IMG/VR virus record: IMGVR_UViG_3300031758_000505
Coordinates: 1 to 25,773 of that record
Length of the DNA: 25,773 nucleotides
Reading direction: 5' to 3' (one strand)
Source: a virus
In this document: in pieces, positions 3,857-25,773 of the stretch
Layout of the letters: every line of letters begins with the position of its first letter
Numbering within the stretch: the stretch's first letter is position 1
The notes under the pieces: model-generated
Seen by the model: only the letters and a program-made list of their open reading frames with translations
The model's database searches: none
What the model was told of the DNA's origin: nothing
Translations under genes and position numbers: made by a program

Positions 3857-4287
3857 CCATAATTGGAATTGACCCAGGCACTAATGGAGGCATCGCATGG
3901 ATCTGGCAGGGGAAACCGTGCGTAGAAAAAATGCCTGATACGCTCAAAGATTTATGGGAGCTATTAGACGAAATCGCAGATCATGATGATTGCAAAGCGT
4001 ACCTTGAAGCAGTCCACAGTTCACCTCAGATGGGCGTGAAAAGCGCATTCACCTTTGGTCAGGGACTTGGACAACTGGAGATGGCACTGACTGCTGCAAG
4101 AATCCCCTTTGAGCGTGTTCGTCCACAGGTATGGCAGAAAACCATGGGATGTATGTCAGGAGGGGATAAGAACGTCACCAAGCGCAGAGCGCAGGAACTC
4201 TTCCCATCGTTGAAGATCACCCACGCCACTGCCGATGCTCTGCTAATCGCTCAATACGGAATCGAGAAAGGAGGGAATCATGCCTAA
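3853..4287 (+). CDS. RuvC-like Holliday junction resolvase
   Basis: This 144-residue protein has an RNase H-like fold of the RuvC type, expected to cleave branched DNA made by recombination or replication before packaging. It opens with IIGIDPGTNGGIAW (catalytic Asp7), has Glu52 in AYLEAVHS followed by the conserved Phe/Gly-rich AFTFGQGLG near residues 66-73, then KNVTKRRAQELFP, and ends with HATADALLIAQYG carrying His124 and Asp128. The four acidic/His catalytic positions look intact and the length fits small phage RuvC-like enzymes. It starts in an ATGA overlap and its end overlaps the replication initiator start by eight bases, linking resolvase and replication genes. Confidence 0.88.
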   Translation: MTIIGIDPGTNGGIAWIWQGKPCVEKMPDTLKDLWELLDEIADHDDCKAYLEAVHSSPQMGVKSAFTFGQGLGQLEMALTAARIPFERVRPQVWQKTMGCMSGGDKNVTKRRAQELFPSLKITHATADALLIAQYGIEKGGNHA

Positions 4288-5008
4288 GCGATACACAGAA
4301 ACACAGAAATGGAGTGATCCATGGTTCCGATCCTTGTCACCCGATGCCAAGCTACTTTGGTTCTGGATGGTAGACAACTGCGACCAGGCGGGAATCATCG
4401 ATCCCGACTTCGCCCTCTGCGAGTTCCAGACAGGAATCAAACGAGCGTTTGAAAAGCTGCAGGAACTGGGTGATCGCATCGCCAGGATCGAGAATGGCAA
4501 ACTCATCATCGTTAAGTTCATCGACTTCCAGCAAGGACGTTTGTCTAGAGATTGCAAGGCGCACAATCCAGTCTTCCAATCCCTCGAAAAGAACGGAATG
4601 CTCGACGAGAATGGCGAAATCAAAGGGTATCCAAAGGGTATCCAAAGGGTATCGATAGGGTATCCATACCCTACTAGTAATAGTAATAGTAATATAAAGA
4701 GTAAATGTACTATTAAGAAAGAAGAGGACGAGACTCCACTCCCATACTGTTCAGATGAGTTCACATCGATCTGGAGCGACTGGGAGCGACATCTGAAAGA
4801 GAAGAAGAAGCCTCTCTCCCCGACTGCGAGGAAGATGCAGTTTGCCAAGCTGAGTGAGATGGGAGAGTCCAGGGCAATCATTGCGCTGAAATATTCGATG
4901 ACCAATGGGTGGCAGGGCATCTACGAGCCAGACAAGAGCAAATCGTCGGCAAGCACCTATGCCTCCCGACACAACGGCAGAGAACAGATCGAGATCCCAG
5001 ACCTATGA
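4280..5008 (+). CDS. Phage replication initiator (O/DnaD-like)
   Basis: This 242-residue protein has the layout of phage replication initiators. The N-terminal part is a winged-helix-like domain of about 110 residues (LSPDAKLLWFWMVDNCDQAG and IKRAFEKLQEL through LIIVKFIDFQQG). Next is a low-complexity linker of about 25 residues rich in Gly, Tyr, Pro, Ser and Asn. The C-terminal domain (IWSDWERHLKEKKKPLSPTARKMQ to YSMTNGWQGIYEP) resembles the tail of DnaD/O-type proteins that contact the helicase loader. The gene lies directly before a DnaC-like loader gene and overlaps it as ATGA. The linker is encoded by an iteron array and an AT-rich run, which is how phage lambda places its origin within gene O. 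The protein would bind these repeats and recruit loader and helicase. Confidence 0.82.
   Translation: MPKRYTETQKWSDPWFRSLSPDAKLLWFWMVDNCDQAGIIDPDFALCEFQTGIKRAFEKLQELGDRIARIENGKLIIVKFIDFQQGRLSRDCKAHNPVFQSLEKNGMLDENGEIKGYPKGIQRVSIGYPYPTSNSNSNIKSKCTIKKEEDETPLPYCSDEFTSIWSDWERHLKEKKKPLSPTARKMQFAKLSEMGESRAIIALKYSMTNGWQGIYEPDKSKSSASTYASRHNGREQIEIPDL
4622..4720. other. Probable replication origin: iterons plus AT-rich region inside the initiator gene
   Basis: Four consecutive 11-base units lie at 4622-4632, 4633-4643, 4644-4654 and 4655-4665: AAAGGGTATCC twice, AAAGGGTATCG and ATAGGGTATCC. The last unit forms an inverted repeat with ATACCC at 4666-4671. Directly after come three TAGTAA units at 4675-4692 and then AT-rich sequence to about 4720, a candidate unwinding region. 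The array lies in the linker-coding part of the initiator gene, as in the lambda O gene. Each unit also contains a 9-mer such as GTATCCAAA that matches the DnaA box TTATCCACA at seven of nine bases. Origin function is inferred from architecture. Confidence 0.65.
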
Positions 5009-5730
5009 ACGAAGAGCAAAAACAAGCAGCAAAATTCCTCGCCAATATCGACGAGATGATCGCAACCATGCCAGATGACGAAGAGACTCCAGCATTTGCA
5101 CAGAATTACCCCTCAGAGAGCGTTTCAGCGATTCCGAGGGTGGACACACCGCTAGTAGACTTCCCAGACCGTCACGGTCGAAATCTGGAGCTTTACGGAG
5201 AAGAATGGAAGAAGGCATACTTCAAGGCACTCGCAATCGCGGAAGCCGGCGGCATCATCATCGCCTATGGACTCCGAGGCACCGGCAAAACGCAAATCGC
5301 TTGCGAGATTGCTCGCAATGCCAAGTTCCAGAATCCGCACCTTCCCAAAAAGCTGTGGAATATGTCACATGTTCCTCTTTATCGGTCAGCAATCTATGCA
5401 AAGGCGATGGATATCTTCATCGATCTCAAAAACGGATTCAATCGGAAGAATGAACCAAGCGAGAAAGAAGTCATCCATCGATTAGTGGAAGCTGTGTTCC
5501 TCGTCATCGATGAGGCACATGTTCGTGGCGAGACGAAGTATGAGGACGATAAACTCACTCACATAATCGATAAGAGATACGATTCAATGCGCCCGACCAT
5601 GCTCATCACGAATCTCGAGAAAAAAGATTTTGCCGCTACCTTATCACCGAGTATTCTTTCGAGGATCTCCGAGATCGGTGGAGGCATTGAATGCAACTGG
5701 CAATCCTACAGAACCAAGAAAACACTGTGA
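5005..5730 (+). CDS. DnaC-like replicative helicase loader (AAA+ ATPase)
   Basis: This 241-residue AAA+ ATPase probably loads the replicative helicase at the phage origin. It has Walker A GLRGTGKT at residues 89-96, Walker B VFLVIDEAH at about 164-172, a sensor-1-like ITN near 201-203 and an Arg-finger-like SRI near 219-221. The first 70 residues are acidic and likely form the helicase-contact region. The ATG at 5005 in the ATGA overlap with the initiator gene was chosen over an in-frame start at 4909, because that extra part only repeats the initiator's coding DNA in another frame. The stop overlaps the methyltransferase GTG start as GTGA. The phage would need a host or distant phage helicase, as none is in the window. 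Confidence 0.88.
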   Translation: MNEEQKQAAKFLANIDEMIATMPDDEETPAFAQNYPSESVSAIPRVDTPLVDFPDRHGRNLELYGEEWKKAYFKALAIAEAGGIIIAYGLRGTGKTQIACEIARNAKFQNPHLPKKLWNMSHVPLYRSAIYAKAMDIFIDLKNGFNRKNEPSEKEVIHRLVEAVFLVIDEAHVRGETKYEDDKLTHIIDKRYDSMRPTMLITNLEKKDFAATLSPSILSRISEIGGGIECNWQSYRTKKTL

Positions 5731-6773
5731 ACACAAAAACAAGAAACGAAAATGTTATACCACCTCAACAAAGACAACTCAGAACACTCCATCTCTTTGC
5801 AGGAGCAGGTGGAGGAATACTTGCAGACATACTTCTTGGACATCGACCAATCGGAGCCGTGGAGATTGAGAAATACCCAAGACGAGTATTGCTCGCCAGA
5901 CAACGAGATGGGATCTTGCCAAAGTTCCCAATCTGGGACGATGTCAGCACCTTCGACGGCAAGCCGTGGAGAGGACAAGTTAACATTGTTTGCGGAGGAT
6001 TCCCTTGCCAAGACATATCCAGCGCAGGAAAAGGTGCTGGCATCGAAGGCGAGCGCAGCGGAATGTGGAAACACATGGCACGAATTATCGGTGAGATACG
6101 ACCGAGATACGCATTCGTGGAAAACTCATCTTTGCTTGTGGGACGAGGACTTGCCCTGGTCCTTGGTGACCTTGCCGAAATGGGGTATGATGCGAAGTGG
6201 GGTGTGCTGGGAGCAGTCGATGCCGGTGCGCCACACAGACGAGACAGAATCTGGATTATGGCAGACTCCAACATGCACACAGATCGAACTACGTTCAGAG
6301 GAGGCGTGGGAGAAGAAGAAGGTCAGCAGGAACAAATTAGGCAGGAACAGTCTTCCGCCTGGGACGCTACAAGAACAAGTGATGATGAGCGGATCAACAC
6401 CGTGCTGGGATTGGAACAAATCACCAAAGAATCCCAAGACCTGGCCGACTCCGCAAGCGAGGGACTGGAAAGGGTCAAGTGGCCGCAGTATGAAGGGGAT
6501 GGAACTAGACTTGCCCACAGCGGTAAAAAAATGGCCGACTCCGATAGTCAACGATTCGCACAACTGCATGATGCCACCAAGTCAACTAACGAGGAACAAT
6601 CTTCCAGGTGCAATGTTGAGGGAAGGAGAGAAACCCAATGGTGGACATCTGAACCCAACGTGGGTCGAGTGGCTCATGGGGTGGCCGCTAGAGTGGACAG
6701 GCTTAAAGCAATCGGGAATGGGCAAGTTCCAGCGGTGGCTGCGCTCGCATGGAAAATTCTAAGCAATCAATAA
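5727..6773 (+). CDS. C5 cytosine-specific DNA methyltransferase (Dcm type)
   Basis: This enzyme of about 348 residues would methylate cytosine C5 in phage DNA, probably to evade host restriction. Motif I (LHLFAGAGGG) is near residues 21-30 and motif IV (GGFPCQDIS, catalytic Cys94) near 90-98. Motif VI ENS is near 132-134, motif VIII RRDRIW near 171-176 and motif X (RLKAIGNGQVPAVAALAW) at the C-terminus. The target-recognition region between VIII and X is low in predicted structure and repeats an ADS motif (MADSN, LADSA, MADSD). A GTG at 5727 in the GTGA overlap is the preferred start; an ATG at 5691 is the alternative. A second frame of 336 codons runs through almost the whole gene, which probably constrains both proteins. 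Confidence 0.9.
   Translation: MNTKTRNENVIPPQQRQLRTLHLFAGAGGGILADILLGHRPIGAVEIEKYPRRVLLARQRDGILPKFPIWDDVSTFDGKPWRGQVNIVCGGFPCQDISSAGKGAGIEGERSGMWKHMARIIGEIRPRYAFVENSSLLVGRGLALVLGDLAEMGYDAKWGVLGAVDAGAPHRRDRIWIMADSNMHTDRTTFRGGVGEEEGQQEQIRQEQSSAWDATRTSDDERINTVLGLEQITKESQDLADSASEGLERVKWPQYEGDGTRLAHSGKKMADSDSQRFAQLHDATKSTNEEQSSRCNVEGRRETQWWTSEPNVGRVAHGVAARVDRLKAIGNGQVPAVAALAWKILSNQ
5752..6762 (+). CDS. Overlapping-frame protein embedded in the methyltransferase gene
   Basis: This frame of 336 codons lies wholly inside the cytosine methyltransferase gene, shifted by one base. It resembles a conserved family of phage hypothetical proteins that I recognise from elsewhere. Family marks are EDSLAKTYPAQEKV near residue 83, WKTHLCLWDEDLPWSLVTLPKWGMMRSG around 128-155, WPTPQARDWKGSSGRS in the middle, and HLNPTWVEWLMGWPLEWTGL close to the end. 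The W-P/Q-T-P motifs are the shifted reading of the ADS motifs of the methyltransferase: one DNA word, (a/c)tggccgactcc, yields both. Trp-rich content and normal start codons argue for translation. The first 70 residues look unconserved and the ATG at 5752 has only an A-rich leader, so the true start could be later. Function is unknown; a methylation-linked role is possible. Confidence 0.62.
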   Translation: MLYHLNKDNSEHSISLQEQVEEYLQTYFLDIDQSEPWRLRNTQDEYCSPDNEMGSCQSSQSGTMSAPSTASRGEDKLTLFAEDSLAKTYPAQEKVLASKASAAECGNTWHELSVRYDRDTHSWKTHLCLWDEDLPWSLVTLPKWGMMRSGVCWEQSMPVRHTDETESGLWQTPTCTQIELRSEEAWEKKKVSRNKLGRNSLPPGTLQEQVMMSGSTPCWDWNKSPKNPKTWPTPQARDWKGSSGRSMKGMELDLPTAVKKWPTPIVNDSHNCMMPPSQLTRNNLPGAMLREGEKPNGGHLNPTWVEWLMGWPLEWTGLKQSGMGKFQRWLRSHGKF

Positions 6774-12080: not shown

Positions 12081-13796
12081 TTATGGGAGATTGGCTAGTA
12101 AATGCGCTCGTAATGCTGGTGCGTAAGTAGCATCGCTGATATGAACATCATCAGATCTAGTAAATGAGCGAGTATCAAAAAATGACGAGTTAGGTATGAT
12201 CGAGCAAATATCTCTTAATGCTTTTCTTACTTTTTCAATACCTTCTGTTCTCGTAAAAGTAAACGCTGGAGACACTGGATTAGATGATCCATCAACCCAA
12301 TTAAGAGCAATAGCTGGATGAAATATATTTGATCCTGTGCTTGAAGCTAAAACAGTAGATGTTACTGTATCAACAAATTCCCATGTTGAATTAGTAAGAC
12401 GAAGTTGGTAAATTCCTAGATTCCAAATATAAGGGTCATTGACTCCAGTTATTGTAACAAATGTCCAAACTCCATTAAGAACAGATAACCCGCCAGTAAA
12501 ACCACTGACTGTAAAATTAACACTAGAACCTGCACCAATTCCGCTTCGATATGCTGGAATATAATCGATAAGCGCAAAAACAAATCGCATTGATGGATCA
12601 ACATAATCTTCTTGAACCCAATTAAAAAGAGTGGTTAATCGCGTTAAATAAAGAGATGATGCAGTTGCATCTTGTGTATCAGATTCACCTTGGAACCAAT
12701 AAATAACATTTTGGTATCTTCCAGATTTTAACCACATGCTCTGCATTGGTGAAGGAGTTACATTATCCCAGAAATCTAATTTATATCTACTTGTTCTATT
12801 ATATGGTGCAACATTTGTCCATTGAGTTATAGAAACGCCACCAACACCACCAAAGTAAATTTCATTAGGACCAATTTGACTGCCAGCAACTACTTTTCTA
12901 ATATTAAGATTTTCTGAACCAGCATTTGATTGTCCAGTAATCAAAATTCTAGTATTCCCTCTGGTTGATATTCTGCTCAAAAATGTTTGAGTAATCAATC
13001 CTCGAAATAATCTCCAGATTGAATTGCCCAATGTTGTCATTGTATCATAATATAGAAAAGCCCCCTGAATTACGCCAGCTTGACCATTGGTATTGGTAGT
13101 TGGATAAAATGATAATTGACTAGAAGTAAAGCCAACAGCAGATGAATGGGTAATTGAACGTAAATTGTTTTCAACAAGATGAGCGCAAGACGTTGTGCCA
13201 TTTGTGCTACCAGCGTGCATTCTTGAAACGCGATAACTATTGACAATATCTGCATAATTACCACCAGTTGGTATTGTTGTTCCGACATTGCTATTTTGAC
13301 CTAACCAAAAAAGATTTTGTGATGGAGTTGCACCATAAGCGGCAGAACCAAGAACCATTGTGCTGGAACCAACTCTAGTAATCATTGATGAATTATTCAA
13401 CAAAGATTCATCAGCCACATCTTGGTAAGACATGTGTCCAAATGAAACGCCAGATGCGTCATTTCCATTCACTGTTTGATCTGTTCTCAAATAATTCAAA
13501 ACACCATTACGCACTATTCTTACTCCAGCAGTATCGTCAGTGGCATTGACTAACGCCCATGGAGTCGTAGTAAGTTGAGTTGCTCCACCAAGTTGATTGC
13601 GACCACCATGAGATGGCAAGCATGGGACATAAACTAATTTATCCCAGATACCTAATTGTTGGCATCCAAGAATAAATGTATTGATGTCTTGTTTCGCAAG
13701 AGGATCAGTAACACCAGCACGGGCGAAATATTCTAATGCTTCTGGAGTGAAAGAATTCACTCTGGGTTTTGCCAACGATAAAGAATATCCAAACAT
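12081..13796 (-). CDS. Tail spike/fibre with SGNH-type carbohydrate esterase domain
   Basis: This 571-residue protein is a probable receptor-binding tail protein. Residues 1-280 resemble beta-rich, ConA/LamG-like phage tail domains (WALVNATDDTAGVRIVRNG, FYPTTNTNGQAGVIQGAFLYYD). Residues about 283-565 carry the sialate O-acetylesterase/SGNH pattern: RILITGQSNAGS (nucleophile Ser290), GGVGGVSITQW, VIYWFQGESDT near 364-373, and the terminal Asp-His pair in DDVHIS (Asp550, His552). It would deacetylate host surface polysaccharide. A beta-rich stretch of about 95 residues (419-515) is inserted between the GESD block and the Asp-His pair and may be a binding module. The gene is visibly more AT-rich than its neighbours, suggesting recent exchange. 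Confidence 0.85.
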   Translation of the reverse strand: MFGYSLSLAKPRVNSFTPEALEYFARAGVTDPLAKQDINTFILGCQQLGIWDKLVYVPCLPSHGGRNQLGGATQLTTTPWALVNATDDTAGVRIVRNGVLNYLRTDQTVNGNDASGVSFGHMSYQDVADESLLNNSSMITRVGSSTMVLGSAAYGATPSQNLFWLGQNSNVGTTIPTGGNYADIVNSYRVSRMHAGSTNGTTSCAHLVENNLRSITHSSAVGFTSSQLSFYPTTNTNGQAGVIQGAFLYYDTMTTLGNSIWRLFRGLITQTFLSRISTRGNTRILITGQSNAGSENLNIRKVVAGSQIGPNEIYFGGVGGVSITQWTNVAPYNRTSRYKLDFWDNVTPSPMQSMWLKSGRYQNVIYWFQGESDTQDATASSLYLTRLTTLFNWVQEDYVDPSMRFVFALIDYIPAYRSGIGAGSSVNFTVSGFTGGLSVLNGVWTFVTITGVNDPYIWNLGIYQLRLTNSTWEFVDTVTSTVLASSTGSNIFHPAIALNWVDGSSNPVSPAFTFTRTEGIEKVRKALRDICSIIPNSSFFDTRSFTRSDDVHISDATYAPALRAHLLANLP

Positions 13797-13799
13797 AAG

Positions 13800-14414
13800 T
13801 TAATAACGCATCTGCATGTTCGCATTGGTAAATATCCGATTTGCAACCATTTGTAAAGTATGTTGTTCATCGATGCGGATCATCTCCTCTTGGAGCAATA
13901 GATCGGCTTCCTGATCGGCAGCTAGTGCTTTCTCTTGCTGACCTTCAGCCCGAAGGTAGTCAGCGTAGGTGCCGTGTGCCATGTATTGGAACCACTCGGC
14001 AGGAATGGCTGTGGTTTCTCCTGAAGCATCACCATAAGTATCGGCAAATTGCTTCTTGTAGGTTACATAGGCTTCCGTGGGATTAAGATCCCCAGCAACC
14101 AATGTAGCACCATCGGCGGTCACCATGATGTCATATTCTTGGACTGATCGGTTAAGCCATGGTGCTTGCTTATGAATACGGAGATATGTGTCGATAGCAT
14201 CTTTTCCAGACTCAGTGTATGGCACCACGCTATTCGTGACTGCTCTTTCTTCCCCGATCTTGAGATATCGAGTCCAGTAATTTGTTGAGCGATATGCTCG
14301 CAATGCTCGACGATTAATCAGTGCCTTGATTCGTCCAAGCTCCAATGTAGCGAAGACAACTCCGCATAATGACTGAATCAAAGATAGCAGTTCAGCGTAG
14401 GTCTTCGTTTGCAT
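13800..14414 (-). CDS. Head-tail connector/adaptor-like protein
   Basis: This 204-residue protein resembles phage adaptor proteins found between capsid and tail genes. Its start, TYAELLSLIQSLCG, and the long helical region with RIKALINRRALRAYRSTNYW are typical, as are AYVTYKKQFADTYGD, EWFQYMAHGTYADYLRAEGQQEKA and the final DEQHTLQMVANRI. It would bind the portal ring and link it to the tail. ATG 14414 overlaps the upstream stop (TGATG); a TTG one codon earlier is a weaker alternative. The gene lies between a small unknown and the tail spike, three bases before the spike start. Family recognition is by eye, without a search. Confidence 0.7.
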   Translation of the reverse strand: MQTKTYAELLSLIQSLCGVVFATLELGRIKALINRRALRAYRSTNYWTRYLKIGEERAVTNSVVPYTESGKDAIDTYLRIHKQAPWLNRSVQEYDIMVTADGATLVAGDLNPTEAYVTYKKQFADTYGDASGETTAIPAEWFQYMAHGTYADYLRAEGQQEKALAADQEADLLLQEEMIRIDEQHTLQMVANRIFTNANMQMRY

Positions 14415-14692
14415 CAAATGTTACCTGCTTTTAGGTGTGATTGTGATTTGAAGAAGTCTCGGACAAACTCTCGGTCGTCCCAGCACTCGGCTCCATATTT
14501 GTTTGCGAGTAGTAGATACTCACGTTGTGGAATCGCACCAACAGGTTTACCTGCGATGGATTTCACCTCTTTCATTCTCCTTGCTTCAGCAGCAGCTTCG
14601 ATCTCCCTACGTTTCTCCAAGCTCTCGACAAACTTGCGACCAGAGCATAGCTCACGGATCAAGGCAGCATTGATTTCTTCTTCAGCAATCAT
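14414..14692 (-). CDS. Hypothetical virion-region protein, 92 residues
   Basis: This 92-residue charged helical protein lies in the head gene block. The N-terminal helix (EEEINAALIRELCSGRKFVESLEKRREIEAAAEARRM) is long and probably coiled. The C-terminal part (GAIPQREYLLLANKYGAECWDDREFVRDFF) has a recurrent pattern seen in small phage head-region proteins. Its ATG directly follows the T-rich tail of a strong hairpin at 14702-14727, so its expression is likely lower than that of the capsid gene upstream. It overlaps the connector start by one base. Confidence 0.62.
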   Translation of the reverse strand: MIAEEEINAALIRELCSGRKFVESLEKRREIEAAAEARRMKEVKSIAGKPVGAIPQREYLLLANKYGAECWDDREFVRDFFKSQSHLKAGNI

Positions 14693-16194: not shown

Positions 16195-17205
16195 TTATTT
16201 GTATTTGGCAATTCTAGCGGCAATCCATTCTTCTGGGCTTCCACTCTTTTCAAAGCGTGAATACGCATCTACAACTTTCGATTTGGAAGATGTCGAGGAC
16301 TTCGCGGCACCCGCTCCAAATGGGGAAGAAGATGGACTGATTTTCAGTTTATTCCCCACCGCAGGTTGTCTCTTAATCCTTGTCCCTCCGTTAATCGAGT
16401 TAGCAGCATGAGCCAAGATGTATTCAATTTGGTAGCCAATTTCAGGAACTTGTTTGCGTAGCTTTTCGATAAGTGGATCAGACACTAGATCCCTGAACTG
16501 CTTCCCAACAGGAGTTGATTCGTCCTTGATGTCAGGGACTTCCTCTTCTGCTGCTGCGATGTATTGACCTTTCAACTGCTCCATCTGAACGATCTGCTGG
16601 AGATGCGCTTGCTGGGCAGGTAGATACTTGGTTAATGCATCACGGGAATTACGGTTAGCTTTGCGGATCTGCTGCTTGGTGAACTCCTTGTCTCCTACGA
16701 GGATGATATCGTCTGCACGATAGTCTTCGTATTCTTCAAGAAGAGCATCTGTTGTCTCAAGTGTTCTCTCAAGTTCTTGATACTTCGCTTTCAAGTCATC
16801 GAATGACTGGATTTCACGAAATGGATTCTCCTCTTGAGGGACTTCCTTGACTTGCGGTTGAGATTGAATCTTTTCCTCCAGGGCTTTTTTCTGAGCAGTT
16901 AGCTCTCCGATGCGTTGCAGCAACCGGCTTTTACCCTTTTTGGCTAAGGCTTGAATCTGCTCCGTGGTCAACGACAGTAGATCAACTTCACTTTCCTCTT
17001 CCTCCTCTTCGGCTTCCTCCTCGGCTTCCGTTTCTTCAGACTCAGCAGGAACTTCTTCCTCTTCATCCTCGGAAACTTCCTCTTCGGATTGTTCCTCTGG
17101 TTCTGGTTCGGGGTTATGTTTTTCCATTCTCTGAGCTACAAGCTCTTCAAATGACAGGTTGGACACTGATTCAATAGCTTCAGCGGTAGCTTCTGGATTA
17201 CTCAT
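16195..17205 (-). CDS. Capsid scaffolding protein
   Basis: This 336-residue protein has the composition of a scaffold. There is a very acidic N-terminal tract (about residues 28-75, nearly all Glu, Ser and Asp), long charged coiled-coil segments (KGKSRLLQRIGELTAQKKALE, FDDLKAKYQELERTLETTDALL, NSRDALTKYLPAQQAHLQQIV) and a basic C-terminal region likely to contact the capsid protein. The ATG at 17205 was chosen; an in-frame TTG at 17256 would lie on the predicted promoter. The gene is transcribed just before the major capsid gene and appears to have its own promoter at 17249-17276. It would be lost or cleaved during head maturation. Confidence 0.85.
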   Translation of the reverse strand: MSNPEATAEAIESVSNLSFEELVAQRMEKHNPEPEPEEQSEEEVSEDEEEEVPAESEETEAEEEAEEEEEESEVDLLSLTTEQIQALAKKGKSRLLQRIGELTAQKKALEEKIQSQPQVKEVPQEENPFREIQSFDDLKAKYQELERTLETTDALLEEYEDYRADDIILVGDKEFTKQQIRKANRNSRDALTKYLPAQQAHLQQIVQMEQLKGQYIAAAEEEVPDIKDESTPVGKQFRDLVSDPLIEKLRKQVPEIGYQIEYILAHAANSINGGTRIKRQPAVGNKLKISPSSSPFGAGAAKSSTSSKSKVVDAYSRFEKSGSPEEWIAARIAKYK

Positions 17206-17248
17206 AACTGGGACGCCATTTACGCTCGGCGGTGCGATACGAAGGACA

Positions 17249-17276
17249 ATTAGCACAAAAGCACCAACTTTGTCAA
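17249..17276 (-). promoter_or_regulatory. Promoter for scaffold and capsid genes
   Basis: On the minus strand a perfect TTGACA (plus-strand 17271-17276) is followed after 16 bases by GCTAAT (17249-17254) with an upstream TG, an extended -10 form. Transcription would start near 17242, about 37 bases before the scaffold ATG at 17205. It lies just after the hairpin at 17313-17337, so the head-assembly genes can be expressed separately from the packaging genes. Confidence 0.62.
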
Positions 17277-18972: not shown

Positions 18973-21039
18973 TCACTGTTCCATTCCTTGAGTTGTTACG
19001 CCACCCATTTCAGCAGGTGCTGTTCCGATGCGTCCAATCTCAGCGTTCTGTGCCTGTTGTAGCTGGAATTGATACTGTCCTGCGTATTTCTGCAAGCGAG
19101 AAGCGAATGCCTCATCCTGCTGCGCTCTAGCGGCAACATCAGGTTGTTGGACATAGGCTTGCACCATCTGCATAGCGATCTGCGCTCCGTTTGGTTGAGC
19201 AGGGACTTCGATACCAGAGAAGATCTTGGAGAGGTCATCTGTGACGTTCTTAGCAATCTTCTGCTGGGCTTCTTCCACCGGTTGCAGCACGTAGTCAGCA
19301 AAGATCGGATTGATCGATGAAGCAGCGAACTCCAGTAGTTTATTCACATCAAGAATGCCATTGCGATCCAACTGGACAAGCGCAACCATGTTTTTCAGCT
19401 GAGTCTCTGCTGTATCAGGATCACTCGACAATGAGTCAAACGATACCATAATCGAGTAGTTCTCATCTGGGCTTCCCTTCGTCATCACTTGAGGATTAGG
19501 ATTGCCAGTCACTTGGAAGAAGATTTCATCAGGACCCATGCGCTGATACAACTTCCATGCCATCGTGAGAACGTCTTTAACGTGATCAAGGAACTTGCCA
19601 ATGTAATACTGTTGGCGAGCAGTCGAGAGAGGATTGGTAAGATCCAGACCGATAGCGCGATCGGCTTGTCCACGCATGGACATCTCGCTTTCAACGGAAC
19701 CGTCATCTCGCGGAGGAATCGGACCGAAGGCGATTTCGCCCAGACGACGATACGGGACTCTGCGCCCAGGACCCCAGTCCGATGGGGGGCGACCGGCAGG
19801 ATGCATGATCGGTGGCAATGTTGCCAGTGACGCACGATCGATGCGACTGTCTCTCTCGGTCTTAATCTGCATTTGGGGACCACGGAGAATATCTGAGAAG
19901 GTTTGCACCTCATACATGCGCTTCTGGTCGTTCGCCAGACGAGTTACCACGAATGGGTAGTCGTCGTAGCCATTGAGCAGTTCATGCTTGGCATAACCAT
20001 CGGATTGTGGATGGAACACCGTGCAGTAGATTCCCTCGGAACCATCTTCCTCATCGATGAGACGCTGGTAGGCATAGACCACCATAACCAGGTCATTATC
20101 GTCGGTGATCGGGAGGCGAGTCTGCGTTTTGACTTTCTCGCCATCGAGATACATCGAGTCTTTGCCACGAAGATTCTCAATAGCGTAGTCCACCCACTTA
20201 CGATCCCATCCTTCGTTGGTCACCTTTTTCTCAAGCTCCTGAGAAGTTAGGAATGTTCGCCAGAACATGTATGGTGCGCGTTGTGGATCTGAGATGTAGG
20301 ATGGGAACATAACTTCACCATCGGGAGCGCAGGAGTAGACGACAGGGCAGTCTACCGTTTGACGAGCAAGTGGGATCTCTGCGTTTCCTTTTTCGCGCAG
20401 AGATTTGATTGCTTTCTTTGCTCGCTTCTTGGAAAGATCAGGGAATGAACTTTGCAGCATTTCGATGAGCATCTCATCGTCTTGCTCGCTCAAGATCATC
20501 TCGACGAGTTCGGGGGATGCTTGTTCGATGTCGCGCAGGTTGACGCTTTGCAGGTAGGTTCGCTTCTCACGATTCCAGCCGACATAAGTCACCATGATTC
20601 CCTTCTCCATCAGGTAGTTCCCACCAAGCTCCATTTGACGCTTGAAGTCAGGAATGTATGACGAGCGCATCCATTTCAGGAAGCCAGAGACAACTGCTGC
20701 CTTGGGCATTGCTGCCATCGATGTCGGGAACGCTTTGATATGCGAGCGAGAAAGTGCTTGGTCGAATAGCGCGACATACAGATCAATGCGCTCACCGATG
20801 ACATTCACTTCCTGATCGGAAGCACCCTGCCACGGGAAAGCATTTGCGCCATTCTTGCGAAGGTCATCAGACTTGCCATCCCAGATGTTTCTGCGGTCAT
20901 TGTAAGAACGCAGACAGGATTCAAAGTAGTAATCAAGATCTACCAAGCAGGTGTCATAAGCATTGGATAACGCACCAATGTCGGGTTTCTTATCAAGGTA
21001 GATAAGTGACTCGTCTTCTATTTGTTGAACGTCATTCAT
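18973..21039 (-). CDS. Portal protein
   Basis: This 688-residue protein is called the portal, the dodecameric ring through which DNA enters and leaves the head. The N-terminal third contains the typical WDGKSDDLRKNGANAFPWQGASD stretch, and helices such as GFLKWMRSSYIPDFKRQMELGGNYL. The central part (VVYSCAPDGEVMFPSYISD, PYMFWRTFLTSQELEK, YDDYPFVVTRL) fits the wing/stem region, and the C-terminal helices (TMAWKLYQRMGPDEIFFQVTG, then a Gln/Ala-rich tail) fit the crown. The size is that of large podovirus-like portals. It lies after the terminase genes and starts in an ATGA overlap with the gene upstream. No single motif is decisive; position and layout support the call. Confidence 0.85.
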   Translation of the reverse strand: MNDVQQIEDESLIYLDKKPDIGALSNAYDTCLVDLDYYFESCLRSYNDRRNIWDGKSDDLRKNGANAFPWQGASDQEVNVIGERIDLYVALFDQALSRSHIKAFPTSMAAMPKAAVVSGFLKWMRSSYIPDFKRQMELGGNYLMEKGIMVTYVGWNREKRTYLQSVNLRDIEQASPELVEMILSEQDDEMLIEMLQSSFPDLSKKRAKKAIKSLREKGNAEIPLARQTVDCPVVYSCAPDGEVMFPSYISDPQRAPYMFWRTFLTSQELEKKVTNEGWDRKWVDYAIENLRGKDSMYLDGEKVKTQTRLPITDDNDLVMVVYAYQRLIDEEDGSEGIYCTVFHPQSDGYAKHELLNGYDDYPFVVTRLANDQKRMYEVQTFSDILRGPQMQIKTERDSRIDRASLATLPPIMHPAGRPPSDWGPGRRVPYRRLGEIAFGPIPPRDDGSVESEMSMRGQADRAIGLDLTNPLSTARQQYYIGKFLDHVKDVLTMAWKLYQRMGPDEIFFQVTGNPNPQVMTKGSPDENYSIMVSFDSLSSDPDTAETQLKNMVALVQLDRNGILDVNKLLEFAASSINPIFADYVLQPVEEAQQKIAKNVTDDLSKIFSGIEVPAQPNGAQIAMQMVQAYVQQPDVAARAQQDEAFASRLQKYAGQYQFQLQQAQNAEIGRIGTAPAEMGGVTTQGMEQ

Positions 21040-21297: not shown

Positions 21298-22896
21298 TTA
21301 ATAACCTCCACCTCCTTGGATTGTAACTAGACTCACAGATTCATCAACGTGATCGATGCCAGAAATAGCAGCATAGCGCAAAACGTCAATAACATCTTTC
21401 CATGCCTCTTTTAGTCCGCCTTCACCGGTGTATTCTGACAATCCTTGAATGATGTTCTCGCACTCGGAGCTAACGTAGAAGTGGGGACGATTGACGGAAT
21501 CCAACGGTTTAGTTGTATCCCATGCCATTTTCCCGATCAGAGCTTGCAATCCGTCATCGATATCAAGACCTGGGGCTGGAATGCACACCATGCCAGCATC
21601 GTTCAAATCCTCGATGATCGATGAGGAACCATCTTGCACCTGATATTTGGCTGCACCAAGGCGAGGGTCGATTAGTCGTTCAAAAATCTCCTCTTCGCCT
21701 TCCATTTCCTCGATTAGTTCCACATAGTCTCGGATGCCATAACCTTTGCCCTTCGCTCCCTCTCCAGGCATCCACTTGCCAGATTTCCACTCTGCCCAGT
21801 CACCTACATCGACTCCAGGATATTCACGATACACCCACATTGTCCCAGACTCGTCCACGGCAATCCAGCACATAAACCAACTCTTGGCTCCAGCAGGATC
21901 GATAATGTGGTATCTGGTGACATTGTGCTTCGGAATCTTGTCGGGTTCGACCACGTTGACTACCTTGTTGAATTTCGGGAACTTGGTAGCGTGTGACTTC
22001 ATCGGCACACCATAGGCGCGGATAAGGATCTCCTCCCGACTCCTGCCTTGTAGCGTCTCCTTGATGCGCTCATATCCACCAAAGGCATTGTCTTTCGAGT
22101 GGAAGTAATGCACGGACGCATTCAGCTTCTTGGACTTCTGGACGTAGGGAACCAACTCATTATTGAGCAATTCTGCCTCACGACTTTCGATGGTGGTTGC
22201 ACCGTCAAGATATTCCTTGATGACTTCAGTCCATCCATCGATGGGTGTGAACGTCACAAGCATCTTGGAGTTACGAGTCGCCAGACGGAAGCGTAGGGTA
22301 GTGATTAGCTCAGGACCAAGAAGATACTCGTCCAGCCACACACCGATGTTGTGCCACACAGGGTTTCGAGATCCAAGCTCGGCACCCTCTAGAATTGTTG
22401 GGTTGTTCTGATACTGCGAGTAGGTCTTGAAGATGATCTGTGATCCATTTGGGAGGATCAGCGAGGAGTCAGTGAATCCTGTCTTCTTCTTGTAGGAGAT
22501 GTAAGCATTTGCGCTGGTGAACTTGGTCTTCAGATACTCTGGCAACCATGCCCAGACTGCGCTTTGTTGCTGACGGATCGACACCTCGGATGTCTGCGCG
22601 AAACAGAATATCTCAGAGTTTGGATTCTCGACTGCAGCACGGACTACGGAAAATGCGCCCCATTGAGTTTTGCCCGATCGGTTTCCACCAAGTGCCAAGA
22701 TCTCATTGACTTCCTTGAGTTGCTCCTCGGCTTTAATCCAGTGAGGAAGACGGAAGCCATATTGGTATGGGTCTTTTTCGGCATTCTCAATTGCTTCATG
22801 GTAGACGCGATGGATTGACAACAGTTCTTCTGGTGTCATCTCGGCAATCTCCTCATCTGTAGGAGGCTTGAGTATCTGATGTTGTCTCCAAATCAT
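21298..22896 (-). CDS. terL: Terminase large subunit
   Basis: This 532-residue packaging motor has an ATPase domain with Walker A GGNRSGKT at residues 70-77 and Walker B VWLDE at about 186-190. Its RNase H-like nuclease domain has acidic candidates in YHIIDPAG, the IDPRLGAAK block and the C-terminal DVIDVLRYA. It would translocate DNA into the procapsid and cut concatemers. It starts in an ATGA overlap with the small terminase candidate. The C-terminus ends in a Gly-rich GGGGY whose codons provide the ribosome site of the next gene. Length and motif order are normal for TerL. Confidence 0.95.
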   Translation of the reverse strand: MIWRQHQILKPPTDEEIAEMTPEELLSIHRVYHEAIENAEKDPYQYGFRLPHWIKAEEQLKEVNEILALGGNRSGKTQWGAFSVVRAAVENPNSEIFCFAQTSEVSIRQQQSAVWAWLPEYLKTKFTSANAYISYKKKTGFTDSSLILPNGSQIIFKTYSQYQNNPTILEGAELGSRNPVWHNIGVWLDEYLLGPELITTLRFRLATRNSKMLVTFTPIDGWTEVIKEYLDGATTIESREAELLNNELVPYVQKSKKLNASVHYFHSKDNAFGGYERIKETLQGRSREEILIRAYGVPMKSHATKFPKFNKVVNVVEPDKIPKHNVTRYHIIDPAGAKSWFMCWIAVDESGTMWVYREYPGVDVGDWAEWKSGKWMPGEGAKGKGYGIRDYVELIEEMEGEEEIFERLIDPRLGAAKYQVQDGSSSIIEDLNDAGMVCIPAPGLDIDDGLQALIGKMAWDTTKPLDSVNRPHFYVSSECENIIQGLSEYTGEGGLKEAWKDVIDVLRYAAISGIDHVDESVSLVTIQGGGGY

Positions 22897-23447
22897 ATGA
22901 TCTCTGCGTCAACTACTTTGCCTTTAGCAATACGAGACTTCGCCTCATTGATGAGCTTCGCGGCATCATCGAGACTTGCGCCTTTACGATGCTCGACCAC
23001 TGTGGTCGCCATGCCGGTCAACTGCGCAGCTTTATCGGTCAGGATGCCGACTGTGATTGCCAGCTTCTCAGGGGAGATCTTGGCAAGACTGTCTGGGTCA
23101 TCGAACAGTTGATTGGCACGTTCAAAGAGCAGATCGGTATATTCCTGAGCCGCAATCGCGTATCGCATGGAGAATTCCTTGCGCTTCGTCTCCAAGGTGT
23201 CGCTATGCCTCCACTCCAGTCCACGGATGACATCACGACCAGCACCTGTCTTCTTGGATATCTCAGAGATTCTAGCTCCCTGAGATAATAGGAACAATGC
23301 CAATGCCGCCTTGTGTGGAGCGTAATGCTCGATGTGATTACGAGGCAAAGACTTGGCACGTTCACGCACCTCTAGAAACCACTCACTCTTATCAGGACGA
23401 TCGTCGTAGTAGGTTTCTTTCAGTTTCTGTAGTTGTTCTTCGCTCAT
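22893..23447 (-). CDS. Terminase small subunit candidate
   Basis: This 184-residue helical protein lies directly before terL in transcription order and overlaps it as ATGA, the usual place of the small terminase. Residues about 47-80 (ALALFLLSQGARISEISKKTGAGRDVIRGLEWRH) form a helix-turn-helix that could recognise packaging sites. The middle is helical (TKRKEFSMRYAIAAQEYTDLLFERANQLF) and probably oligomerises. The C-terminal part (DDAAKLINEAKSRIAKGKVVDAEI) would contact TerL. The call is based on context and the HTH; sequence similarity to named TerS families is not obvious. Confidence 0.72.
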   Translation of the reverse strand: MSEEQLQKLKETYYDDRPDKSEWFLEVRERAKSLPRNHIEHYAPHKAALALFLLSQGARISEISKKTGAGRDVIRGLEWRHSDTLETKRKEFSMRYAIAAQEYTDLLFERANQLFDDPDSLAKISPEKLAITVGILTDKAAQLTGMATTVVEHRKGASLDDAAKLINEAKSRIAKGKVVDAEII

Positions 23448-23464
23448 AGCGATGGAATCAGAGC

Positions 23465-25773
23465 TTACTTTCTCACAGGAGGCAAGTTTTGTTTTTCTTG
23501 TTCTTCAAAGTCTTTTGCCGCTTGTTCAAGTTCAGCGGAAAACTCTGGGTCACCAGATGCCATCCTTGCAAGTGATGTAAGCCCTTGTCGAGTTTTGAAT
23601 GCTCCCTTGAACATTTTCATGTAAGCATCATTAACCTCTCCAGGCAGTGCGTTTCTGGCAAGAGAAGCACGCAAACCATATCTTTCGCTTCCATTTGCAA
23701 GTGACTCTGCCAAGAATCTATTTCTTGCAGAAGTAGTCATTTTGGCAATAGGAAACAGAACACTCAGTGCTTGAGTGCTTGCAACAGCTCTCAAATTAAC
23801 ATCCTTCTTGGAAAGCTCTTTAATGGTATTTCCTTGGTAAAGTTTTGCGATATCGTAAAGAAGAGTTCCAGTATCTGAGCCAAGAACTGTATTAACCTTC
23901 TTGCCTAGTTCAGTAGGTTTTCCAGGAGTGCCATAGTCAGCAAGAAACCTGTCTACATCAAATAATGGAGTATATGGTGCGCCAGCGGATGGCACTCCAC
24001 CATTGTATTTATCAAGAAAGATTCTTAGGAAGTCAGTTCGATAAAGATTTCTAGCAGGTGTTGACGATTTATTGAGTTGCGCCATTGCAATCTCAACATC
24101 CCGAATGGTGCTTGCATTGGAAAAAATAGAATTCGACAACAAATCTGGATCAATATTTTCAAAATTACCTTTTTTGGCAGCTTGAAATATTTCAGAAGTA
24201 ACTAACTGTTCTTCCAGTTTTTTGACTTTTTCTCTTTCAATAATTTGATCAGCAACTGCTTTTCTTTCAGCTTTACTTAAAGCCGATGCCAATTGTGTCA
24301 AATCACTTCTGCTGAGATCAGAAATGCTTACTCCCTGTATGGTGGAAAGTTTTTCATTCAAAGTATCTAATCCCCTAGAGATCTTTCCAGCATCAGCACC
24401 ATACAAGGTATTCAAGATTCCTTGGTCATACTCTAGTCGCGTAATGTTCCCTTGAGTTCCAATGCCAATATCTTTCATATATTGGGTCTGCATACCATCC
24501 CTGAGTTGTTGTGTGATCCCAGGAGTTGTTGCTTCTAGTCCCTGTGCCGCAGTCAAGACTCTGCTCATGGTGTCGGGATCTTTCATAGCAATCCTTACGA
24601 CATCTCGTCGTGTTGCAACATCCTCGCCTCCAACATCTCTCAGAATTCCACCTAAAGTTGTTTTTTCAAATGCATTTCTATTGCGAACAAGATCTGCAGC
24701 TTTTGTGAATTCATCACCTAATGTGCCGGTAGATCCGTCAGGACGGACAATTGGTGTTTGATTATAAATATCTCTCCTTAAAGCAGAAAGCTCATTGGAG
24801 ATTTGCAGACCAAATACATCTTTTGTTTGACCACCAACAGCACTGTCTGGTCTGGCATCATTGAATCTTCTGATATACGCATCAAAACCTTTGAAATCCA
24901 GTGGCTTATTAATTGCTTCAAGATCTCTGATTTGATTTGCTAGATCTTGTTTGCGACCTGAATTTTTTTCTCGGCTAAGTTGTTTGCGTAAATCTGCAAT
25001 CAGCACGGGAGCATCTCTGACTCGTCGAAGATCATCTTCTACTCGCGCAACTGCCGTTCTGTCAAATGCTCCTCCAGGATTGATTCTGGCTTTAATATCA
25101 GGAAGGAGATCAAGAAGCTCTCTTGCTTCTATTTGAAATCCCGCATCATCAGCAAGTTGTGCCATGAAGTCATATTGCTGAGTAGTATCTTCAATGGCTT
25201 TATCCTCTGCCTTTTTAATAGTGTCTCGCAAAAATCCACCCAGTTTGTCAATGTCAGCTACTTGCTTAGGCGCAAGCAATCGATTTACTGCTCCTTCAAC
25301 AATTGTTTTGTTCTGATTAGTATTGGCAGCAATTTGAGATGCAAGTGCGTCTCTTTGTTGTTTTTGTTTGAAAGCAACAGCAGCATAATCCCCTGGGCTT
25401 GTCGTGGCAGTTTTTGCTAAAGGATCAAAAATTTTACGAAGGTCTTGTTGTGCTGTGCGCAATCTGCCACCTAATCGAGATGAGGGGAAGTCTCCAGCAA
25501 GTTCCTGCGCTCCTTCTAGTCCTTTCGGACCAAATTGAACACCAGGAGGCACTGCTTCAGGCAAGCCAAGACGTTGTGCAGATTTAGCATACTCCTGCAT
25601 GAATTCATTAGCGAAACCACCAGGCATTCTTACTGCTCTCGCAGCAGGAATTGCCACATCACCAACTGCACCCAAAGCACCGCCAATTGCTGCCTGTGTG
25701 CCTCGGCGCATGACGTTCTCACCAATATTCTGAGGCATACCAAGTGCTGCACGGGTAATCATATCAGCAGCAG
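23465..25773 (-). CDS. Large helical virion-associated protein, N-terminus outside the window
   Basis: About 769 residues are visible; the frame is still open at the right edge (an ATG occurs at 25762, but codons continue upstream), so the protein is probably much longer. It is almost entirely helical and charged (LRKQLSREKNSGRKQDLANQIRDLE, RKAVADQIIEREKVKKLEEQL, EFSAELEQAAKDFEEQEKQ), with an Ala/Gly-rich patch near the left end of the visible part (GTQAAIGGALGAVGDVAIPAARAV). Such proteins resemble phage internal virion or ejection proteins or large polyvalent proteins. No catalytic motif is visible in this part. It is more AT-rich than the terminase genes and stops 18 bases before the small terminase start. 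Confidence 0.7.
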   Translation of the reverse strand, partial: AADMITRAALGMPQNIGENVMRRGTQAAIGGALGAVGDVAIPAARAVRMPGGFANEFMQEYAKSAQRLGLPEAVPPGVQFGPKGLEGAQELAGDFPSSRLGGRLRTAQQDLRKIFDPLAKTATTSPGDYAAVAFKQKQQRDALASQIAANTNQNKTIVEGAVNRLLAPKQVADIDKLGGFLRDTIKKAEDKAIEDTTQQYDFMAQLADDAGFQIEARELLDLLPDIKARINPGGAFDRTAVARVEDDLRRVRDAPVLIADLRKQLSREKNSGRKQDLANQIRDLEAINKPLDFKGFDAYIRRFNDARPDSAVGGQTKDVFGLQISNELSALRRDIYNQTPIVRPDGSTGTLGDEFTKAADLVRNRNAFEKTTLGGILRDVGGEDVATRRDVVRIAMKDPDTMSRVLTAAQGLEATTPGITQQLRDGMQTQYMKDIGIGTQGNITRLEYDQGILNTLYGADAGKISRGLDTLNEKLSTIQGVSISDLSRSDLTQLASALSKAERKAVADQIIEREKVKKLEEQLVTSEIFQAAKKGNFENIDPDLLSNSIFSNASTIRDVEIAMAQLNKSSTPARNLYRTDFLRIFLDKYNGGVPSAGAPYTPLFDVDRFLADYGTPGKPTELGKKVNTVLGSDTGTLLYDIAKLYQGNTIKELSKKDVNLRAVASTQALSVLFPIAKMTTSARNRFLAESLANGSERYGLRASLARNALPGEVNDAYMKMFKGAFKTRQGLTSLARMASGDPEFSAELEQAAKDFEEQEKQNLPPVRK

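Follow-up and report, generated by a model that had tools for sequence, protein, structure and literature searches.

A phage C5-cytosine methyltransferase gene very probably encodes its specificity subunit in an overlapping +1 frame

Two reading frames in one methyltransferase gene

Two long reading frames that share one methyltransferase gene in a phage genome very probably encode the two chains of a single C5-cytosine DNA methyltransferase, the second frame providing the recognition and motif IX chain. The DNA analyzed, here called the window, is the complete 25,773-bp IMG/VR virus record. By PHROG profile matches its gene content is that of a tailed-phage fragment, with genes for Erf, exonuclease VIII, a Holliday junction resolvase, an O-like protein, a DnaC-like protein, the methyltransferase and MazG in that order, and with endolysin, major head protein and terminase genes on the opposite strand. 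Among the head and packaging genes, several long minus-strand ORFs (12081-14417, 16195-17256, 18973-21039 and 22893-25762), two of them of 688 and 765 aa, did not match any PHROG at E 1e-3. The methyltransferase region comprises the following features, in which the large-chain frame is called f1 and the frame nested in it f2.

4909..5730, + strand: DnaC-like helicase loader gene, upstream (phrog_50, E 5e-32)
5727..6773, + strand: f1 (frame 1), C5-cytosine methyltransferase large chain; 348 codons, GTG start, motifs I-VIII and X
5752..6762, + strand: f2 (frame 2), proposed specificity subunit; 336 codons, ATG start, +1 to f1
5785..6270, + strand: catalytic core of f1, motifs I to VIII (FAGAGGG, PCQ, ENS, RRDR), from dN/dS and AF2
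6258..6269, + strand: shared word ATGGCAGACTCC, read as MADS in f1 and WQTP in f2 (sequence)
6273..6640, + strand: middle region, where f2 appears to code for the variable/recognition region and f1 for a hydrophilic low-confidence linker (selection, pLDDT)
6441..6453, + strand: shared word CTGGCCGACTCC, read as LADS in f1 and WPTP (within WPTPQARDWK) in f2 (sequence)
6531..6543, + strand: shared word ATGGCCGACTCC, read as MADS in f1 and WPTP in f2 (sequence)
6649..6705, + strand: motif IX-like block of f2, LNPTWVEWLMGWPLEWTGL, where f1 reads VGRVAHGVAARVDRL (conservation, ungapped pattern)
6699..6770, + strand: motif X of f1, RLKAIGNGQVPAVAALAWKIL; in split relatives f2 carries motif X

Both ORFs and their +1 offset, as described in an earlier note on this DNA, were recovered from the sequence, as were the three shared words with their ADS reading in f1 and WQTP or WPTP reading in f2. 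Over the DNA of the f1 catalytic core, f2 reads YDRDTHSWKT and LPKWGMMRSG, and the GMMRSG, WPTPQARDWK and LNPTWVEWLMGWP that the note had listed are all present in it. The GTG start of f1 at 5727-5730 shares bases with the stop codon of the DnaC-like gene (GTGA), which suggests translational coupling, and an in-frame ATG is also present upstream at 5691. The O-like gene (4280-5008) and the listed DnaC-like ORF (4909-5730) overlap by about 100 nt, and the real start of the latter may lie further downstream than 4909. No excess of promoters or terminators over shuffled sequence was found in a scan around the methyltransferase gene.

Family assignment and predicted structures

The f1 protein matched PF00145 above its curated cut-off (102.2 bits against 22, E 4.8e-29) and phrog_363 (E 3.6e-69), while its score against TIGR00675, the dcm superfamily, was 83.8 bits and thus under the curated cut-off of 100.65, as would be expected of a chain without motif IX. 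Its similarity to M.HhaI is confined to the catalytic domain, both by profile and by fold comparison. When f1 was modeled alone with AF2, pLDDT was mostly >90 over aa 31-193, with lower values near 100-120, and mostly <50 over aa 200-338, giving a confident catalytic fold and motif X helix with a low-confidence stretch between them. For f2, the match was to phrog_1008 ('DNA methyltransferase', E 1.9e-21), a family that was also matched by all 98 f2 homologues. No match to f2 was found in Pfam or NCBIfam, nor in Pfam for the f2 of split forms (see below), and a PDB profile search with f2 returned chance matches only. The single-chain model of f2 was poor (pLDDT 58.5), and BFVD structure matches, with TM-scores <=0.2 on this low-confidence model, were discarded.

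Motifs IX and X in nested and split forms

The f2 block LNPxWVEWLMGWP looks like motif IX. In the window, LNPTWVEWLMGWP corresponds to LTPRECARLMGFP by position and by length, ungapped over 13 residues, with an hhalign comparison that was not significant, and in about 60 of the 99 f2 proteins it was the window that scored best as motif IX. As hhalign of the f2 tail against one-chain methyltransferases gave no significant match, the assignment is based on position and on the ungapped 13-residue pattern. In f1, the best-scoring window after motif VIII is not a motif IX.

Motif X was assigned to f1 in about 196 of the 215 loci, the window included, and by profile to f2 in about 12, with 7 loci left without a profile assignment of form. 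In the nested form, to which the window belongs, f1 continues through motif X and the end of f2 is close by. In loci of the split form, f1 terminates after motif VIII (about 6-25 nt from it) or before GNGQVP, and f2 holds both LNPxWVEWLMGWP and RLKAIGNGQVP. By eye, the phages phiBT1, BellusTerra and Upyo also appear to have the split form, with f1 ending just after motif VIII. RLKAIGNGQVP thus occurs in f1 or f2 depending on the locus, i.e. the same motif is found in either chain, which is what two halves of a single enzyme should show.

In phiBT1 (L172, AJ550940), an unannotated +1 ORF at 1993-2922, containing PTP repeats, a motif IX-like block and motif X, overlaps gp9.1 and runs beyond it, and gp9.1 itself is labeled 'DNA methylase may be inactive'. 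BellusTerra gp80/gp79 (L168) and Upyo gp54/gp53 (L173) are adjacent 'DNA methylase' pairs of the split form in +1 register. One further locus, L263, has a C5 methyltransferase ORF with neither a recognizable in-frame motif IX nor a second frame of the f2 type, and is possibly another way to split the enzyme.

The split form also bears on the main rival reading, namely that a programmed +1 frameshift after motif VIII fuses f1 to f2 into one methyltransferase. Since f1 ends so close to motif VIII in these loci, and f2 then provides the recognition region, motif IX and motif X, such a fusion would show the standard motif order. A frameshift, however, leaves unexplained why f2 is stop-free and constrained upstream, over motifs I-VIII, why its start lies 4 nt after that of f1 in 66 of 99 loci (through the sequence NTGAATGAGY), and why f1 has a downstream motif X in most loci, and we consider it improbable. 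The preferred reading is that of two separate chains. Here motifs I-VIII of f1 would make up the domain for SAM binding and catalysis, and f1 would also contribute the closing motif X helix. Translation of f2 would begin at a start of its own, shortly after that of f1, and its product would form the target-recognition region with its WPTPxARDW repeats, as well as motif IX. With the catalytic motifs and motif X in one chain, and the other chain holding the variable repeats along with the block resembling motif IX, a heterodimer is the simplest reading. We infer that the chains would bind each other and that f2 would contact the DNA, the assembled product being an active orphan methyltransferase that presumably shields phage DNA from host restriction.

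Selection is divided along the gene

Purifying selection in both frames, which the earlier note had proposed as a check, was found, and it is partitioned along the gene. By employing single-site changes in 48 disjoint pairs, we obtained dN/dS values of 0.05-0.08 for f1 and 0.27-0.45 for f2 over motifs I-VIII, about 1.1 for f1 and about 0.11 for f2 in the middle region between motifs VIII and IX, and 0.15-0.41 for f1 and 0.11-0.30 for f2 over motifs IX-X, where both are constrained; sites silent in both frames are few, making the ratios based on them imprecise. None of the changes in the 48 pairs creates a stop codon. The value of about 1.1 means that the supposed recognition region of f1 is without detectable selection at the protein level. 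Symmetric codon-permutation tests concur with this partition.

Across 99 non-redundant genes, f2 was more conserved than the permutation null in each window between motifs I and X; the third frame also scored above the null in the same test. Conservation of f2 peaks at YDPDTSSWKT, LPKWGMMRN, WPTPTASD and LNPTWVEWLMGWPLGWTD, the motif IX-like block at 6649..6705 being the most conserved of all, and its constrained elements include the WPTPxARDW repeats and LNPxWVEWLMGWP; across motifs I-VIII the constraint is moderate. The number of WPTPxAxD repeats differs among relatives, e.g. in L224:2860-4374, and might track target specificity.

That f2 is constrained over nearly its full length, exceeding the recognition region, and is without a Pfam or PDB relative, would suit an independent phage protein that acts as a regulator, anti-restriction factor or inhibitor and whose gene was overprinted on that of the methyltransferase. 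Such a protein would nevertheless have to be one that is never seen apart from the methyltransferase and that is constrained exactly where f1 is unconstrained, and it would account neither for motif X switching between f1 and f2 nor for the missing motif IX of f1, making this reading improbable. Nothing was found in support of f2 as a counter-restriction factor, one of two roles raised in the earlier note. The other, that f2 might modify specificity, is near the mark: the evidence favors f2 as the specificity half of the enzyme itself rather than as an accessory.

The second frame is open far beyond chance

The openness of f2 was compared with a null in which synonymous codons were permuted within f1, leaving its protein and codon usage unchanged. 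The f2 of the window has no internal stop where 6.0 are expected, and none of 20,000 permutations was stop-free. In 84 loci retrieved with f2, five f2 stops were found against 412 expected, while the third frame of the same loci was not depleted (1440 against 1216 expected). To avoid search bias, another 80 loci were retrieved by the f1 catalytic region only, and f2 was open in all 80, starting at about motif I and running almost as far as f1 itself, with the leftover stops confined to about 20 codons at the beginning or about 25 at the end. The earlier note would have taken the arrangement as refuted by two things together, namely a lack of f2 homologues outside overlapping positions and stops in the f2 of relatives with an intact methyltransferase; the second of these is clearly contradicted by the 80 loci. 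One-chain C5 methyltransferases of the same genomes, with motif IX in frame (20 genomes), had many +1 stops and no f2, the number of these stops being 232 against 226 expected. Stop depletion and selection together lend strong support to the original proposal of a true gene-in-gene arrangement, in which the variable region of the methyltransferase is shaped by a second conserved protein.

Although shadow similarity does occur in shifted frames of conserved genes, and the third frame is likewise above the permutation null, the idea that f2 is a non-gene, open through base composition and conserved merely as a shadow of f1, is almost certainly wrong, being refuted by the stop counts (both the depletion in f2 and its absence from one-chain enzymes), the loci retrieved by f1, the dN/dS values and the codon-permutation tests, and since f1 is neutral in the middle region where f2 is conserved, there is no f1 conservation there to cast a shadow.

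Distribution

The arrangement was found in phages of Acinetobacter, Salmonella, Pseudomonas, Vibrio, Klebsiella, Paenibacillus, Mycobacterium and Bacteroides, and in contigs assigned to Proteobacteria, Verrucomicrobia, Planctomycetes, Chloroflexi, Myxococcus, Spirochaetes and archaeal bins. In every locus, f2 is in the +1 phase relative to the methyltransferase catalytic domain. Stand-alone homologues of f2, which had been suggested as a source of support, were not found, and neither were in-frame fusions of f2 to a catalytic domain, be it in the 80 genome loci or in the 215 loci overall; the nearest approach to a separate f2 is the split form in phiBT1, BellusTerra and Upyo. Most of the records examined annotate f1 alone as a DNA methyltransferase.

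Comparison with known systems

The nesting of f2 in f1 at +1 has a precedent in M.EcoHK31I, whose small chain is reportedly coded in another frame within the large-chain gene, an overlap that would produce the motif split described for that enzyme. M.EcoHK31I (YGGCCR) is a two-polypeptide C5 methyltransferase whose large chain carries motifs I-VIII and X and whose smaller chain carries motif IX alone, the recognition domain being predicted in the large chain (Lee, Kam and Shaw 1995, as cited in PMC3404938). The f1 chain is like that large chain in carrying motifs I-VIII and X. The present pair differs in that selection places the recognition region in f2, and in that the f2 of the window, with 336 aa, covers nearly all of f1. 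In M.AquI, another split C5 methyltransferase, the catalytic motifs I-VIII are on one chain and the remainder on a second (PMC3404938), which resembles the split form found here. The variable region of M.AquI is, however, split over both chains and its motif X is on the small chain, unlike in the window, where motif X is in f1.

The same arrangement is seen in Paenibacillus phage Shelly (KP296795), where gp56 is annotated as 'g55 internal gene' relative to gp55 and labeled hypothetical, in a record that offers no function or family-level reading. Another known overlap, the ShiLan element, is an out-of-frame HNH endonuclease within a mycobacteriophage methylase (PMC11855218). It is a mobile homing insertion of sporadic distribution that lies in the third frame and has nothing to do with methylation, unlike f2, which is in the +1 frame and integral in every homologue examined.

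Implications

Two-chain C5 methyltransferases are thus already known from M.EcoHK31I and M.AquI. In the open literature that we searched, we found no account of a second subunit encoded in overlap with a phage methyltransferase, and that literature does not appear to document how widely the arrangement occurs in phages and prophages, the placing of the recognition region in f2 or the changing of frames by motif X. These loci probably represent a large class of C5 methyltransferases, of ancient origin and found in phages and prophages across many bacterial phyla and some archaeal bins, that are heterodimers with a specificity subunit in the +1 frame and a motif X that can move between the chains. 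As only f1 is annotated in most of the records examined, the proposed specificity half is absent from the annotation. If the two-chain reading is true, the 'variable region' of f1 would be a neutrally evolving by-product of f2 and the annotated gene inactive alone, so that a cloned f1 gene would probably look inactive. Lastly, same-strand overlaps of kilobase length are rarely this clear and, as both products seem to belong to a single enzyme, it would become possible to test directly how overlapping genes arise and are maintained.
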